From positions 1 through 35,860 of the forward strand of contig JAQWQB010000012.1 in the NCBI GenBank assembly GCA_029245065.1: 35,860 nucleotides of DNA, read 5' to 3'. Positions 7,755 through 12,455 of this stretch are shown here, piece by piece (position 1 is the first letter of the stretch; each line of letters begins with the position of its first letter). Position numbers and translations under genes: made by a program. Below the pieces are notes generated by a model, which saw only the letters and a list, made by a program, of their open reading frames with translations, ran no database searches and was not told where the DNA came from. The DNA comes from Flavobacteriales bacterium (GTDB taxonomy: Bacteria; Bacteroidota; Bacteroidia; Flavobacteriales_D; Sanyastnellaceae).

Positions 7755-8273
7755 ATGGAAAAAGCAGTAGAAAAGTCGAATTATTTCCACGGGTATATCT
7801 CTTTAACAGGACCTGGAACAGTGCAAGAGGAGTTGAGAAGAAGTCAAGAGATGATGCTTTCAACCCTTCACGAATTGACCGAAGCGCAATGGATGCACCG
7901 ATATGCTCCTGAAAAATGGAGTGTGAAAGAAGTGGTTCAGCATTGCATAGATACAGAACGAATCATGACCTACCGCGGATTGGCTTTTGCCCGTGGTGAG
8001 GAAGGTGCGCTACCGGGCTATGATGAGAATGCTTACGCCGCCTTATCGGACGCTGATCGCAGAGACCCTTCCTTTATTTTAAGTGAGTACGAAGTGGTAC
8101 GCGCCTCAACGGTCATGCTCTTTGATTCATTTTCAGATGAGATGCTCTTCAAAGAAGGCACCTTCAGCGGTAATTCCGTGCTGCAAGTAATCCACATTGG
8201 CCGTATGGTAGCCGGACATGATCTTCATCACTTAGGCGTCATCAAAGAGCGTTACTTGAGAGTTGAGAGTTAG
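7755..8273 (+). CDS. DinB-family (DinB_2) four-helix protein
   Basis: A 172-residue protein of the DinB/YfiT-like superfamily, four-helix bundles that bind a divalent metal through three histidines. Candidate ligands are H63 in EVVQHCIDTE, and H155 and H159 in AGHDLHHLGVIKERYL. WSVKEVVQH is the typical helix-2 motif. Many members are thiol-dependent transferases, but the substrate here cannot be inferred. The last codons (LRVES) fall inside a degenerate GAGTT-type repeat tract that continues past the stop, so the C-terminal few residues may be repeat-derived. Confidence 0.88.
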   Translation: MEKAVEKSNYFHGYISLTGPGTVQEELRRSQEMMLSTLHELTEAQWMHRYAPEKWSVKEVVQHCIDTERIMTYRGLAFARGEEGALPGYDENAYAALSDADRRDPSFILSEYEVVRASTVMLFDSFSDEMLFKEGTFSGNSVLQVIHIGRMVAGHDLHHLGVIKERYLRVES

Positions 8274-8320
8274 GAGTTCCGAGTTGGGAGTGAGGAGTTG
8301 AGTGTATGGAGTTAGGAGTG
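8256..8320 (+). repeat. Degenerate GAGTTGGGAGT-type minisatellite at the DinB 3' end
   Basis: About eight imperfect copies of an 8- to 9-base unit of the form GAGTTAGGA, GAGTTGGGA or GAGTGAGGA run from the last codons of the DinB gene into the spacer. Purines dominate on this strand. Similar tracts occur at gene ends in several Bacteroidota genomes (from memory). Confidence 0.75.
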
Positions 8321-8341
8321 TCATTGAACATCTCTGTAGGC

Positions 8342-8564: not shown

Positions 8565-8795
8565 TTCAAAGGTGCACAGAAATTAAAAGCACCTTTGTTA
8601 GTTCTTTCCGAAACGTACTTTTCAAAATGGCGATTTTCGCGCTGTATCGATAGTTTTACTTTTTCAAACGCTCTAAAATGACGCTCATATTTAGGAATTA
8701 AATAGTTGATTAACAATTAGATGTAGTATGAAATTGGAGTCGAACCTAAAAAAACCACTTTTTCGCCTCAACGTACATAAAATTTGTTCTAAATT
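8565..8795 (+). repeat. Element A: left copy of a diverged inverted pair with embedded promoter
   Basis: This stretch matches the reverse complement of 12227-12455 with near-constant spacing. Block 8610-8658 is identical to 12408-12360 at 44 of 49 positions, and block 8749-8785 matches 12272-12236 at 31 of 37; the start-to-start spacing is 139 and 136 bases. Both copies contain TTG, 18 bases, TACTTTTC. In copy A the element runs almost to the ATG of the 502-residue gene at 8804 and would form a leader of about 175 bases. Copy A also holds a perfect 9-bp inverted repeat, CAAAGGTGC/GCACCTTTG (8567-8597). No coding potential is seen in it. Confidence 0.8.
8595..8623 (+). promoter_or_regulatory. 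Conserved promoter within element A
   Basis: TTG (8595-8597), 18 bases, TACTTTTC (8616-8623). The box differs from TAnnTTTG only in the last base. The same motif and spacing are kept in the inverted copy, which is the best support that it is functional. Predicted start near 8630. Confidence 0.55.
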
Positions 8796-8803
8796 CACTT
8801 GTT

Positions 8804-10312
8804 ATGGATCCGTTATCAGAGGTAATTGAGGTGTTAGCGCCTATTCAGCGAAAGGAATTTGAACGGTACTTGTCTATTCACGGTAAGAAAGACGATCGGA
8901 GAGATGGAGAAATGTTTCGTCTCATTTGTGAAGACCCATCGATTTCTTCAGACCAACTATTAAAAGAACTGTATCCAGATAACAACAGGAATGCGTACCA
9001 CACTTTACGTAAACGATTGTTTGCGCGCCTGCAAGAGTTTATTTCCATTAAGCTCATTGAAACGGATGCGTCTCCTTCGGGTTCAGTGGCAGTGATGATC
9101 AATACAGCTCAGTTCTTCATTGAAAACGAAAAATTCAATTTGGCAGCACGGTTTTTATCCAAAGCGAAATGGAAAGCGAAAAAGCACCGTCTCTTTTCGC
9201 AACACGCGGAAGTGCTGAAGCTCAGTATGAATCATGCGATGCAGCTGAAGTTTGATTACGAAGTGCTGTTTCAGGAGTGGAGCGAAATTAAAAAGTTGAA
9301 TGAGCTGGAAGAAAACGTCTCGTTGGCTACCACTTTAATTCGCTCCCAACTAGATCAATTGAAACGATCCGGAGAATCCATTGTGTTGAAAGAAATTGCG
9401 CAGCGGGTTTTGGCGAAATTAGGGGTGAACTCAGATGATATTTACGACGCGGGCATCGCCTACCGACTGATGGAGATTTTCCGCTCCAGTATGATCGCCA
9501 CAAAGGAATACGATTTGTTCGAGAGCTACGTGGAACAGGAGTTTGAGAAGTTACGTGATGCCAATTCCTTTTCTGAGAACGACATACAATATGAGCTAGG
9601 TTTCTTATACATGATTGCCCATGCGAAGTACCGGAACCGAAAGCTTGATGAAGCAGATGTGGTGAACAAGGAAATGCGCTTGAAGGCAGAAGGGGCAGGC
9701 GACAAATTGAAACGTGATTACTTCGCGAAGTACAAGATGATGAAAGCCTCCATTGAGACCTATTCTGGCAATAATGAGTTGGCCATTACATTGCTCGAAG
9801 AGGAATTAATCAATCCGTCAAAATTGCGCTTAGAAGACCGATTGAATATGATGTTGAACCTCAGCGTCTATTACTTTCAAGCAGACATGTTCGAAGAGGC
9901 GCTTGCTCGGATCCAAGGCATGGAAATGAATGAGCGAAAGCTTCAACGGATCATGGGGAAGGAGTGGCGCTTCAAAAAGGCCCTGATTGAAATCATCATA
10001 TTGATTGAACTTGGAGAAATTGCAAAAGCCAAATTGAGGATGCGCGCCTTGGATAGAACCTTTAGCGATTTCTTGAAACTCAGAATTTACGAGCGCGTGA
10101 ATGGCTTCTTGAAAGTAATCCGATGGATAATGGACAATCCTACTGAGGTGGCTAGCGCCCATTTTGAAGAGAAAGTAGACTCCATCATTGAACGACTTCC
10201 AGGTGATCGGGAAGACATCCAAGCTATGACCTTTTATTGTTGGGTGAAAAGTAAAATGATCCAACGTCCGTATTACGAAGTCCTCGTTGAAACCATTCAG
10301 ACCTTTGAATAA
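8804..10312 (+). CDS. Protein of unknown function, helical repeat type, 502 residues
   Basis: A soluble, charged, almost entirely helical protein with no signal peptide. The N-terminal 85 residues (LAPIQRKEFERYLSI, then LLKELYPDNNRNAYHTLRKRLFARLQEFI) look like a compact domain. The rest resembles TPR-like helical hairpins, for example NTAQFFIENEKFNLAARFLSKA and MLNLSVYYFQADMFEEALARIQGM. From memory, similar N-termini with 'fRKRLxxxLxxF'-like motifs occur in Bacteroidota proteins of about 500 residues whose role is unknown. It is preceded by element A, whose 3' end lies 8 bases before the ATG. No function can be assigned. A serine hydrolase gene follows in the same direction after 72 bases with its own weak promoter. 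Confidence 0.85.
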   Translation: MDPLSEVIEVLAPIQRKEFERYLSIHGKKDDRRDGEMFRLICEDPSISSDQLLKELYPDNNRNAYHTLRKRLFARLQEFISIKLIETDASPSGSVAVMINTAQFFIENEKFNLAARFLSKAKWKAKKHRLFSQHAEVLKLSMNHAMQLKFDYEVLFQEWSEIKKLNELEENVSLATTLIRSQLDQLKRSGESIVLKEIAQRVLAKLGVNSDDIYDAGIAYRLMEIFRSSMIATKEYDLFESYVEQEFEKLRDANSFSENDIQYELGFLYMIAHAKYRNRKLDEADVVNKEMRLKAEGAGDKLKRDYFAKYKMMKASIETYSGNNELAITLLEEELINPSKLRLEDRLNMMLNLSVYYFQADMFEEALARIQGMEMNERKLQRIMGKEWRFKKALIEIIILIELGEIAKAKLRMRALDRTFSDFLKLRIYERVNGFLKVIRWIMDNPTEVASAHFEEKVDSIIERLPGDREDIQAMTFYCWVKSKMIQRPYYEVLVETIQTFE

Positions 10313-10326
10313 CCGCAGAACGAAAG

Positions 10327-10361
10327 TTGAGTAGCTATTTCTTAGGACTGCTGTATATTCG
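10327..10361 (+). promoter_or_regulatory. Possible promoter of the serine hydrolase gene
   Basis: TTG (10327-10329), 24 bases, TATATTCG (10354-10361). One mismatch in the -7 box and a slightly long spacer. The ATG follows 23 bases later. Confidence 0.35.
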
Positions 10362-10384
10362 TTGCGTAACCCATTGACCAACTC

Positions 10385-11896
10385 ATGAAAAAAGGATTCA
10401 TCATTGCCCTTTGCGTGGCACTCTGTTCGCCCGTTTTCGCCCAGAAAATAGCGAAAACAACCAAAAAACTTGACGCCTATTACGCAGAAGCACTCAAGGA
10501 GTGGAATGTGCCAGGAATGGCAATTGCCATCGTCAAAGACGGCGAAATAGTTTTTGAAAAAGGATACGGCGTAAGGCATGTTGAGTCCAAAGAGCCTGTT
10601 GATGAAAACTCGTTGTTTGCGGTAGCTTCCAATTCGAAAGCAGTCACTGCTGCGGCATTGGCTATATTGGTTGATGAAGGGGAAATTAACTGGGACGACA
10701 AGGTGCAACAGTACCTACCTACATTCCAATTGTATGACCCGTATGTGAGCGCGAACATGACGATCCGTGACTTACTTTGCCACCGATCTGGATTGGCTAC
10801 CTTCAGTGGTGATCTCATCTGGTATGGAAGTGATCATTCGAGGGAAGAGGTTATTCGTCGAGCGCGCTACTTGAAGCCGGCTTATGGATTTCGTGAGCAC
10901 TTTGGCTATCAGAACATCATGTTTTTAGCGGCCGGACAAATCATTCCGGTTGTCACAGGACAAACGTGGGAAAACTTTGTGAAAGAGCGCATCCTGACGC
11001 CAATCGGAATGGATAGAACAGTTGTTTCAACCACGGAGTTGCGCAAAGGAGATAACATTGCTTATCCGCACAACGACTTTAAGGACGGACACGTAGCCAT
11101 TCAATACGTCAACTGGGATAACATTGCGCCGGCTGGTGGGTTGATTTCATCTGTGCATGATTGGTCGCAATGGCTCATTCTTCAAATGAATGAAGGGATG
11201 AAAGACAGCACCCAGCTGTGGTCGCCAGAAAGAGCAACCGAAATGTGGGAGGTCCAGACGCCAGAAGCCATTTCTTCTTGGAGTAAGAAGTTATTTCCGA
11301 GCAAGACCTTTGATGGCTATGGCTTAGGTTGGGAATTATCGAACCTGCATGGTAAAAAAGTAGTGTCTCACGGAGGTGGCTACGACGGCATGATTAGCAG
11401 AACGGTAATGGTTCCTGAAGAAGGAATAGGAGTGGTTATCTTGACGAACTCAATCAGTTACATATCATACGCCTTGGCTTACGAAACCTTGGACAGGCTT
11501 CTTGGGCATAAGGAACAGCATGATTGGTCAACAACGTTCAAGGAATTAACATCTTCGGACCCCGAACCAGATCCGGAGCCGATTCCAAATACGACTCCAA
11601 GTTTGGACCTGGCCGCCTACGCGGGAACCTATGATTGTGATGTATATGGGAAATGTGAGGTACGATTGGTAGGGGACCAGTTGACCTTTCAATTCAGCCA
11701 TACTCAAATTTTCAGAGGCACATTTAGGCATTGGCACTACGATACTTTTCAGCTAAACTGGGGGACTCAGATGATGTTACCTTCTGGAACCGTGCAGTTT
11801 ACATTGGGTCCAGATGGGAAGGTGAAGGAAATGATGATTGATGTTCCGAATCCAGATTTTGATTTCAGCGAATTAGAATTCAAAAAACTGGATTGA
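10385..11896 (+). CDS. Secreted serine hydrolase, beta-lactamase class C / PBP4* family
   Basis: A 503-residue protein with a signal peptide ending CSPVFAQ (about residue 20). The serine hydrolase domain spans about 25-385. Its three active-site motifs are intact: S82-N-S-K85 (SxxK), Y175-Q-N177 (YxN) and H329-G-G-G332 (the KTG-equivalent). After a Pro-rich linker (SDPEPDPEPIPNT), a C-terminal beta domain of DUF3471 type covers about 405-500 (LDLAAYAGTYDCDVYGKCEV). Members include D-aminopeptidases, esterases and penicillin-binding peptidases. The substrate is not predictable and resistance to beta-lactams should not be assumed. The protein should act in the periplasm or be exported. Confidence 0.92.
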   Translation: MKKGFIIALCVALCSPVFAQKIAKTTKKLDAYYAEALKEWNVPGMAIAIVKDGEIVFEKGYGVRHVESKEPVDENSLFAVASNSKAVTAAALAILVDEGEINWDDKVQQYLPTFQLYDPYVSANMTIRDLLCHRSGLATFSGDLIWYGSDHSREEVIRRARYLKPAYGFREHFGYQNIMFLAAGQIIPVVTGQTWENFVKERILTPIGMDRTVVSTTELRKGDNIAYPHNDFKDGHVAIQYVNWDNIAPAGGLISSVHDWSQWLILQMNEGMKDSTQLWSPERATEMWEVQTPEAISSWSKKLFPSKTFDGYGLGWELSNLHGKKVVSHGGGYDGMISRTVMVPEEGIGVVILTNSISYISYALAYETLDRLLGHKEQHDWSTTFKELTSSDPEPDPEPIPNTTPSLDLAAYAGTYDCDVYGKCEVRLVGDQLTFQFSHTQIFRGTFRHWHYDTFQLNWGTQMMLPSGTVQFTLGPDGKVKEMMIDVPNPDFDFSELEFKKLD

Positions 11897-11918
11897 ATCA
11901 AACTCTTTTATATATTTG
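11893..11918 (+). promoter_or_regulatory. Promoter of tRNA-Arg
   Basis: A perfect -7 box, TATATTTG (11911-11918), lies 15 bases after TTG (11893-11895). The TTG overlaps the stop region of the serine hydrolase gene. The tRNA starts 42 bases after the box. Confidence 0.55.
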
Positions 11919-11959
11919 CACCCCGTTTGAGGAAACTCAATTTCCAAGACGGCAGTGAT

Positions 11960-12033
11960 GGCTCCGTAGCTCAACTGGATAGAGCACCGCACTACGGATG
12001 CGGAGGTTCGGGGTTCGAACCCCTGCGGGGTCA
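11960..12033 (+). tRNA. tRNA-Arg (anticodon ACG)
   Basis: A 74-base cloverleaf. The acceptor stem pairs GGCTCCG with CGGGGTC, with two G-T pairs. The D arm is GCTC..GAGC, and the anticodon stem CCGCA/TGCGG encloses the loop CTACGGA (anticodon ACG). The T arm contains the invariant GGTTCGAACC. CCA is not encoded. The anticodon reads CGU, and CGC/CGA after A34-to-I editing. No integrase gene or duplicated 3' end was seen nearby. Confidence 0.97.
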
Positions 12034-12041
12034 CAGATTGG

Positions 12042-12076
12042 AAACCCTCTTAACAGCAATGTTGAGAGGGTTTTTT
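12042..12076 (+). terminator. Terminator of tRNA-Arg
   Basis: AACCCTCTTAACA pairs with TGTTGAGAGGGTT around GCAA (one T-G pair), followed by six T (12071-12076). On the minus strand the stem is followed only by TTTCC, so it would be weaker in that direction. Confidence 0.93.
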
Positions 12077-12226
12077 GATTACTGAGCTAGCCGGTAGGGT
12101 TTATTGGAGAGGTGGTCGACCTCAATCACCCGTGGGTGCAATTGAACGTGTTGGGAAGAATGTTAGATGGAATAGGTGGCTGAGTCTGTCGAAGCCTTGG
12201 TGAATTTTATCATTGGTAATCAACCT
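12077..12226. other. Spacer with short palindromes, no gene
   Basis: No ORF with coding character. It holds GAGGTGGTCGACCTC (an imperfect palindrome near 12110-12124), CACCCGTGGGTG (12127-12138) and GGCTGAGTCTGTCGAAGCC (near 12178-12196), which resembles a short dispersed repeat common in marine Bacteroidota (recall). Read on the minus strand these follow the promoter of element B, so they could be hairpins in a minus-strand RNA ending at the tRNA terminator. Confidence 0.4.
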
Positions 12227-12455
12227 ATTTCCAATAAATTTCGTGTACGTTGGCCCCAAAAAGTGGTTTTTTAAATTCCCGCTTCATTCTTGATGTAATT
12301 AACAGTTAGACAGCGTCTTAAATCGTCAAAAATTCCTTTTTCATGAAAGGTTTGAAATTTAAAACTACCGATACAGGACGAAAAACGCGATTTTGAAAAG
12401 TACGTTTCAACCATTTCTAACAAAGCCCTTCAGAATTTCTTCACACCTTTGAGAA
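12227..12455 (-). repeat. Element B: right copy of the diverged inverted pair
   Basis: The reverse complement of this stretch aligns with element A (8565-8795) over its whole length. Conserved blocks are at 12360-12408 and 12236-12272, and CAAAG and CTTTG motifs are conserved at the outer end. It contains TTG, 18 bases, TACTTTTC reading towards the tRNA. Unlike copy A, no gene follows: the only ATG soon after the element opens a reading frame of 16 codons. It lies upstream of, but points away from, the gene at 12567. It could be a promoter for a small RNA, the remnant of a lost paralogue of the 502-residue gene, or one end of an old mobile element. Confidence 0.78.
12395..12423 (-). promoter_or_regulatory. 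Conserved promoter within element B
   Basis: On the minus strand TTG (12423-12421), 18 bases, TACTTTTC (12402-12395), the same arrangement as in element A. Predicted start near 12388, reading towards 12043. Confidence 0.5.

Follow-up and report, generated by a model that had tools for sequence, protein, structure and literature searches.

Introduction

Intracellular sensors that combine a helix-turn-helix (HTH) with a TPR superhelix are known from Firmicutes, and the RRNPP or RRNPPA receptors (Rap, Rgg, NprR, PlcR, PrgX and AimR) are found there and in the phages of that phylum. Membership of this group includes an adjacent gene for a secreted propeptide of 10–100 amino acids. A different point of reference is provided by the classical lac, gal and ara operons, which are autoregulated and in which two operator sites and looping between them are involved. 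The Bacteroidota have a housekeeping promoter of their own form (TTTG / TAnnTTTG).

The locus described here can be compared with each of these systems. It lies on contig JAQWQB010000012.1 of a Flavobacteriales bacterium (assembly GCA_029245065.1), of which the first 35,860 nucleotides are hereafter called the window. Two diverged sequences of about 230 bp, copies A and B, stand there in inverted orientation, and copy A precedes a gene for a 502-amino-acid protein. The evidence supports reading the pair as a two-site operator-like element that is conserved before a widespread, unnamed family of TPR proteins with an HTH-like N-terminus. As in lac, gal and ara, there are two same-sense sites, a promoter site and a second one close to the start codon, separated by about 65–160 bp, whereas the regulator, its binding and any looping are in our case proposals. 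The predicted promoter, TTG-N18-TACTTTTC, fits the Bacteroidota housekeeping form with one change, but unlike that promoter the conserved element takes in ACG on its upstream side and recurs close to the ATG, where it has no −33 partner. With the RRNPP receptors the modeled 502-aa protein appears to share a C-terminal TPR superhelix of similar size, and its helical N-terminal domain is compatible with the HTH of an AimR-like HTH plus TPR layout; it differs from them in belonging to another phylum, in having no sequence-level match and in an N-terminal domain that is not clearly an HTH.

An inverted pair with two conserved blocks

Comparison of the window with itself by BLASTN aligned copy A (8566–8794, plus strand) with copy B (12452–12227, minus strand) over 239 columns, of which 68.2% are identical (E = 2.4e-15). 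In 1000 dinucleotide shuffles local alignment scores averaged 21.5 and never exceeded 34, against 105 for the real pair, and the inverted pair described in an earlier note on this DNA is thus real, except that its right end, placed there at 12455, moves to 12452, where detectable homology stops. The copies are 3.5 kb apart and the whole arrangement is about 3.9 kb across. Conservation along the alignment is blocky, with 52 of 61 positions identical in columns 50–110 (85%) and 31 of 37 in columns 190–226 (84%). The spacer between these blocks (columns 111–189) has 38 identities in 79 columns, and upon realignment its 47 identities were no better than chance, the mean for shuffled spacers under the same alignment procedure being 47.0. 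The pair also appears to be alone. Whole-genome searches with A and with B, which the note had proposed as a way to find more copies, returned just these two, and a sequence model built from both, run against 114 genomes from the family, gave no convincing homologue that covers the whole of the roughly 230 bp (best E 0.0017). No same-genus genome was among the relatives searched.

The surroundings of the two copies differ in the way the note had described. Copy A leads into the 502-aa gene (P0001; 8804–10312, plus strand), whose ATG lies at 8804. Copy B faces no gene: no open reading frame of at least 80 amino acids lies downstream of it, and no trace of the 502-aa gene could be detected in the interval from 12226 to 12040 on the minus strand (best DNA score 21, shuffled mean 19.5).

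The note had offered a structured leader or small RNA as one explanation for the pair, and the conserved sequence does run past the predicted promoter (AAAATNGCGNTTTTCGNNCTGTATCGNTAGTTTTA), as would be expected if A and B each made such an RNA. Fold z-scores for the two copies on both strands are, however, close to zero (0.08, 0.35, 0.68 and −0.02 against dinucleotide shuffles), which indicates no stable structure, and Rfam returned only the tRNA at its gathering threshold and chance-level matches under lenient thresholds. A terminator-like structure was not found at copy B, the genome provides no further copies and the family no convincing one, and orthologous loci keep nothing recognizable besides the ACGTA sites described below. 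We consider an RNA of this kind improbable; an unstructured transcript from the copies is possible. Shared coding was likewise considered and rejected, as no open reading frame has a common start in A and B. A short frame, NVLFK(M/I)A(I/F)F(A/V)LYR, ends at a shared stop in both copies (8612–8656 and 12362–12406); its final stretch reads MAIFALYR in A and IAFFVLYR in B, where the start codon is missing. In a further frame, ETYFSK, the changes between A and B show no preference for third positions.

A predicted promoter and two ACGTA sites in each copy

The claim that both copies hold the same promoter was borne out, in that TTG-N18-TACTTTTC occurs at only two places in the window, one in each copy. 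The predicted promoter of copy A (8595–8623, plus strand) resembles the −33/−7 pattern of Bacteroidota, and that of copy B was located by pattern search at 12395–12423 on the minus strand. Each copy also contains two AACGTAC sites in direct, same-sense orientation. In copy A, where the spacing is 158 bp, the upstream site 1 (8612–8618, plus strand) overlaps the predicted −7 box, and the start-proximal site 2 (8770–8776, plus strand) lies 34 nt before the ATG. The corresponding sites of copy B, both on the minus strand, are at 12400–12406 (site 1) and 12245–12251 (site 2). Scored with a position weight matrix built without the window, site 1 reaches 14.7 in A and 14.3 in B, within a range of 10.5–14.7 for the window sites scored (14.7, 14.3 and 10.5). 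Just upstream of the promoter of copy A, and overlapping it, is a perfect 9-bp hairpin (CAAAGGTGC/GCACCTTTG, 8567–8597), of which about five pairs are left in B.

The site pair before orthologues of the 502-aa gene

Orthologues of the 502-aa protein were found in 28 of 100 relatives; of 399 genomes searched across the order, 90 have one at E 1e-20. Upstream regions from several families of the order (at least three) carry the motif (A/T)ACGTA(C/T)(T/A)TT at 8–54 nt before the start codon, with a fuller consensus near the ATG of AAAACGTA(C/T)(T/A)TTA. A second copy of the motif mostly lies 65–86 bp further upstream (66–68 bp in several orthologues, and 108 and 133 bp in two). With the window's own gene left out, the near-start motif is present in 15 of 36 non-redundant orthologues and the pair in 10 of 36, as against means of 0.84 (maximum 4) and 0.04 (maximum 2), respectively, in shuffled upstream regions, a set that includes the window. 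The 21 orthologues in which the near-start motif is absent are mostly the more distant ones. One pair of these upstream regions aligns at E 1e-4 and the others do not, which places the sites in an otherwise diverged background. In ten of the genomes searched throughout (G011, G038, G007, G021, G080, G185, G300, G239, G231 and G005), one of the few matches to the site pair sits precisely before the orthologue of the 502-aa gene.

Paired sites conserved before the orthologues of a regulator gene are the arrangement that marks an autoregulatory operator pair, and the sites at this locus are found in that arrangement. Of the explanations put forward in the note, a duplicated control region is therefore the one that holds up, as both shared AACGTAC sites recur before distant orthologues of the gene. 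The note had further asked whether anything outside the promoter is conserved in relatives: the ACGTA sites are kept, and the rest of the 230 bp is not. We infer that the sites, which are deeply conserved before the gene, are protein-binding DNA. Searches of the literature found nothing to connect Bacteroidetes with the motif or with RNPP proteins, and the site sequence combined with Flavobacteri- likewise led to no relevant description.

The protein that binds the sites could be another regulator, or the sites could belong to promoters that have an ACGTA-containing box and are read by a special sigma-factor class, in which case the 502-aa gene would be just one of several targets. Consistent with this, several orthologues have a site 1 that resembles a −7 box (TACTTTTG, TATATTTG), and in genus g6 (G005 and G032) a similar site pair precedes an unrelated outer-membrane-like gene, instead of or beside the 502-aa orthologue. 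Against it, no −33 partner hexamer is conserved around site 1 across the orthologues, and in most of these site 2 is separated from the ATG by about 8–20 nt, too near for a normal promoter. The motif tracks the 502-aa gene across families, as autoregulation predicts. A regulon cannot be claimed, since genome-wide site pairs are no commoner than in a reversed-pattern control, and the pairs in G005 and G032 are the only recurring extra case. On balance we regard this alternative to autoregulation as rather unlikely, though another regulator is the strongest competing explanation. In the two g6 species the ACGTA pair (L085 4128–4196 and L089 6427–6494) stands 90–160 nt before the outer-membrane-like gene, which encodes 177–192 amino acids and is 3.5–3.8 kb from the 502-aa orthologue; this gene was not found in the genome of the window.

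A TPR protein with a putative helix-turn-helix

The 502-aa protein, with orthologues of about 490–510 amino acids and two or three paralogues in several relatives, matches no Pfam or NCBIfam family above cut-off, and a sequence search of the PDB returned just a designed TPR (E 0.23). It is predicted to consist of a putative N-terminal HTH (residues ~29–88) followed by a TPR superhelix. An AlphaFold2 model based on a four-sequence alignment is all-helical (pLDDT 83.5), and its best structural matches are Rap (4gyo, at Z 20.4, with 318 residues superposed at rmsd 4.6) and NprR (Z 18), with AimR at Z 16–17 (6jg8, Z 16.6), all at about 10% identity. Unrelated TPR-like proteins such as Rpn6 and LGN also score Z 16–18. 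A TPR-like superhelix is thus well supported by the model, whereas kinship with the RRNPP receptors is not.

The N-terminal domain is less clear. Modeled alone, the first 102 residues give a pLDDT of 82; among the solved structures that Foldseek listed for this domain none was a significant match (E above 3), and residues ~29–79 align weakly with the HTH domains of AsnC/Lrp, WhiA and Pax6 (Z 3.5–4.7). All four aligned sequences agree at A64, Y65, H66, R69, K70, R71 and L72 (AYHxxRKRL), a motif that sits in the last helix of residues ~29–79, which would be the recognition helix. Because the fold matches are weak (HTH Z below 5, Foldseek E above 3), DNA binding by the 502-aa protein can be proposed only tentatively.

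The layout invites a broader reading, in which the 502-aa family would be to Bacteroidota what the RRNPP HTH-TPR sensors are to Firmicutes, widespread but unrecognized. Its members would be one-component autoregulators that sense a ligand and bind to paired ACGTA operators, and copy B would be maintained as a stand-alone operator that sets the response, either as a decoy or by controlling the orphan gene P0003. We consider this conjecture unlikely. Inspection of the window by eye showed no short open reading frame with a signal-peptide-like start beside the 502-aa gene. The published search for RRNPP(A) receptors used a size range of 250–500 amino acids (PMC10075063), at the edge of which the 502 residues of this protein lie.

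Gene order and the fate of copy B

Between the copies, the 502-aa gene is followed on the plus strand by a serine hydrolase gene with Beta-lactamase and DUF3471 domains (10385–11896) and by tRNA-Arg(acg) (11960–12034). Copy B is at the right edge of this hydrolase/tRNA-Arg segment and adjoins the divergent P0003 (12567–13196, plus strand), a 209-aa gene that is a possible target of B. P0003 matched no known family, and of 120 genomes searched that of the window alone yielded it; its product is possibly a coiled coil. Beyond it lie a carbonic anhydrase gene and then a GNAT gene, both absent from the open reading frame lists of the corresponding interval in relatives. Those relatives (G011, G038 and L083, the last two apparently representing one and the same contig) keep the order of a DinB-family gene, the 502-aa gene and later an Smr-domain gene, and in them tRNA-Arg(acg) and the hydrolase gene lie between the 502-aa and Smr genes on the minus strand, opposite to the window, where both are on the plus strand. 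The segment at 10385–12034 in the window corresponds to 12113–13767 of L086 (G011), in a gene order otherwise conserved.

This comparison bears on another suggestion of the note, that an old mobile unit, with the 502-aa gene, the hydrolase gene and tRNA-Arg inside it, has A and B as its ends. The inverted arrangement, about 3.9 kb across, is of the expected form. The enclosed genes, however, are syntenic neighbors in the relatives just named, where no such pair was found; they encode a serine hydrolase, a tRNA and a TPR protein of an unnamed family but no recombinase, and the genome holds only two copies of the repeat. No empty site was seen in relatives, in which the interior genes stand at the syntenic place without the ends. 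Recombination between A and B would have flipped the 502-aa gene together with the hydrolase gene, and only the hydrolase/tRNA part differs, so that such an exchange does not account for the orientation difference either. A mobile origin is accordingly very improbable.

What has become of copy B is informed by its pattern of divergence. Its blocks are 83/98 identical to those of A, where a rough model of free drift predicts about 69% (P 3e-4), and a single-segment permutation test of the clustering of identities in the alignment gave P 0.04. As the blocks were picked after the alignment had been viewed, as the clustering is of P 0.04 and as gene conversion between the copies could mimic constraint, we take this estimate to be supportive and not decisive. 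Since the sites were conserved while the spacer became unrecognizable, selection has probably acted on copy B through the greater part of its existence.

Several present roles for B would be compatible with this history. It may have controlled a paralogue that was lost only recently, it may control the divergent P0003, or it may have been retained by itself as an operator that titrates the regulator. It may also now be a dead remnant, either the former control region of a second 502-aa gene that has since disappeared or a by-product of rearrangement, a reading that concerns B only and is compatible with the best explanation for A. Behind B there is neither a gene nor a detectable remnant of one, B stands at the edge of a segment that is oriented differently in relatives, some of the relatives carry paralogues of the 502-aa family, and the interval from the tRNA to B contains CTGAGNNTGTCGAAG, a pattern of which the genome has 12 instances. 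Retention of the promoter, both sites and the two blocks beside a fully diverged spacer points instead to constraint during much of B's history, with which a dead remnant can be reconciled only if the gene of B was lost recently. We therefore treat the remnant as a tentative possibility that falls somewhat short of an even chance.

Discussion

In copy A the predicted −7 box is overlapped by site 1, and the start codon follows shortly after site 2, so that a protein bound at both would repress or tune the gene. The leading candidate for this protein, at about an even chance, is the product of the gene itself, because the motif co-distributes with the gene and the protein has an HTH-like N-terminus. 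The explanation that we favor, and hold to be evenly balanced between right and wrong, is that A and B are one cis-regulatory region present twice, comprising a promoter and two direct operators with an ACGTA core; that A controls the 502-aa gene, whose product binds its own control region; and that B is an old inverted duplicate that has probably long been under selection. The 502-aa product would then act as an HTH-TPR regulator that occupies both sites in its own control region, and its binding there, which might loop the intervening DNA, would repress or tune transcription of its own gene. The regulator may respond to a ligand held by its TPR part.

An unexplained repeat thus becomes a testable handle on a protein family that is common in Flavobacteriales and has no Pfam or NCBIfam match above cut-off, and the conserved site pair offers a concrete DNA probe. 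The resemblance to Rap, NprR and AimR raises the question of whether intracellular HTH-TPR sensors also exist in Bacteroidota. Copy B, an orphan, provides a natural test of whether selection can retain a lone operator.

The region also contains smaller repeats. The stretch CTGAGTCTGTCGAAG at 12180–12194, between the tRNA and copy B, matches a pattern with 12 occurrences in the genome and 0 in a reversed control. Degenerate tandem repeats resembling GAGTTAGGAGTT follow the DinB-family gene at 8260–8322, and a comparable GCAGTAAGCAGTAAG array lies near the hydrolase gene of G011 (L086 13810–13870).
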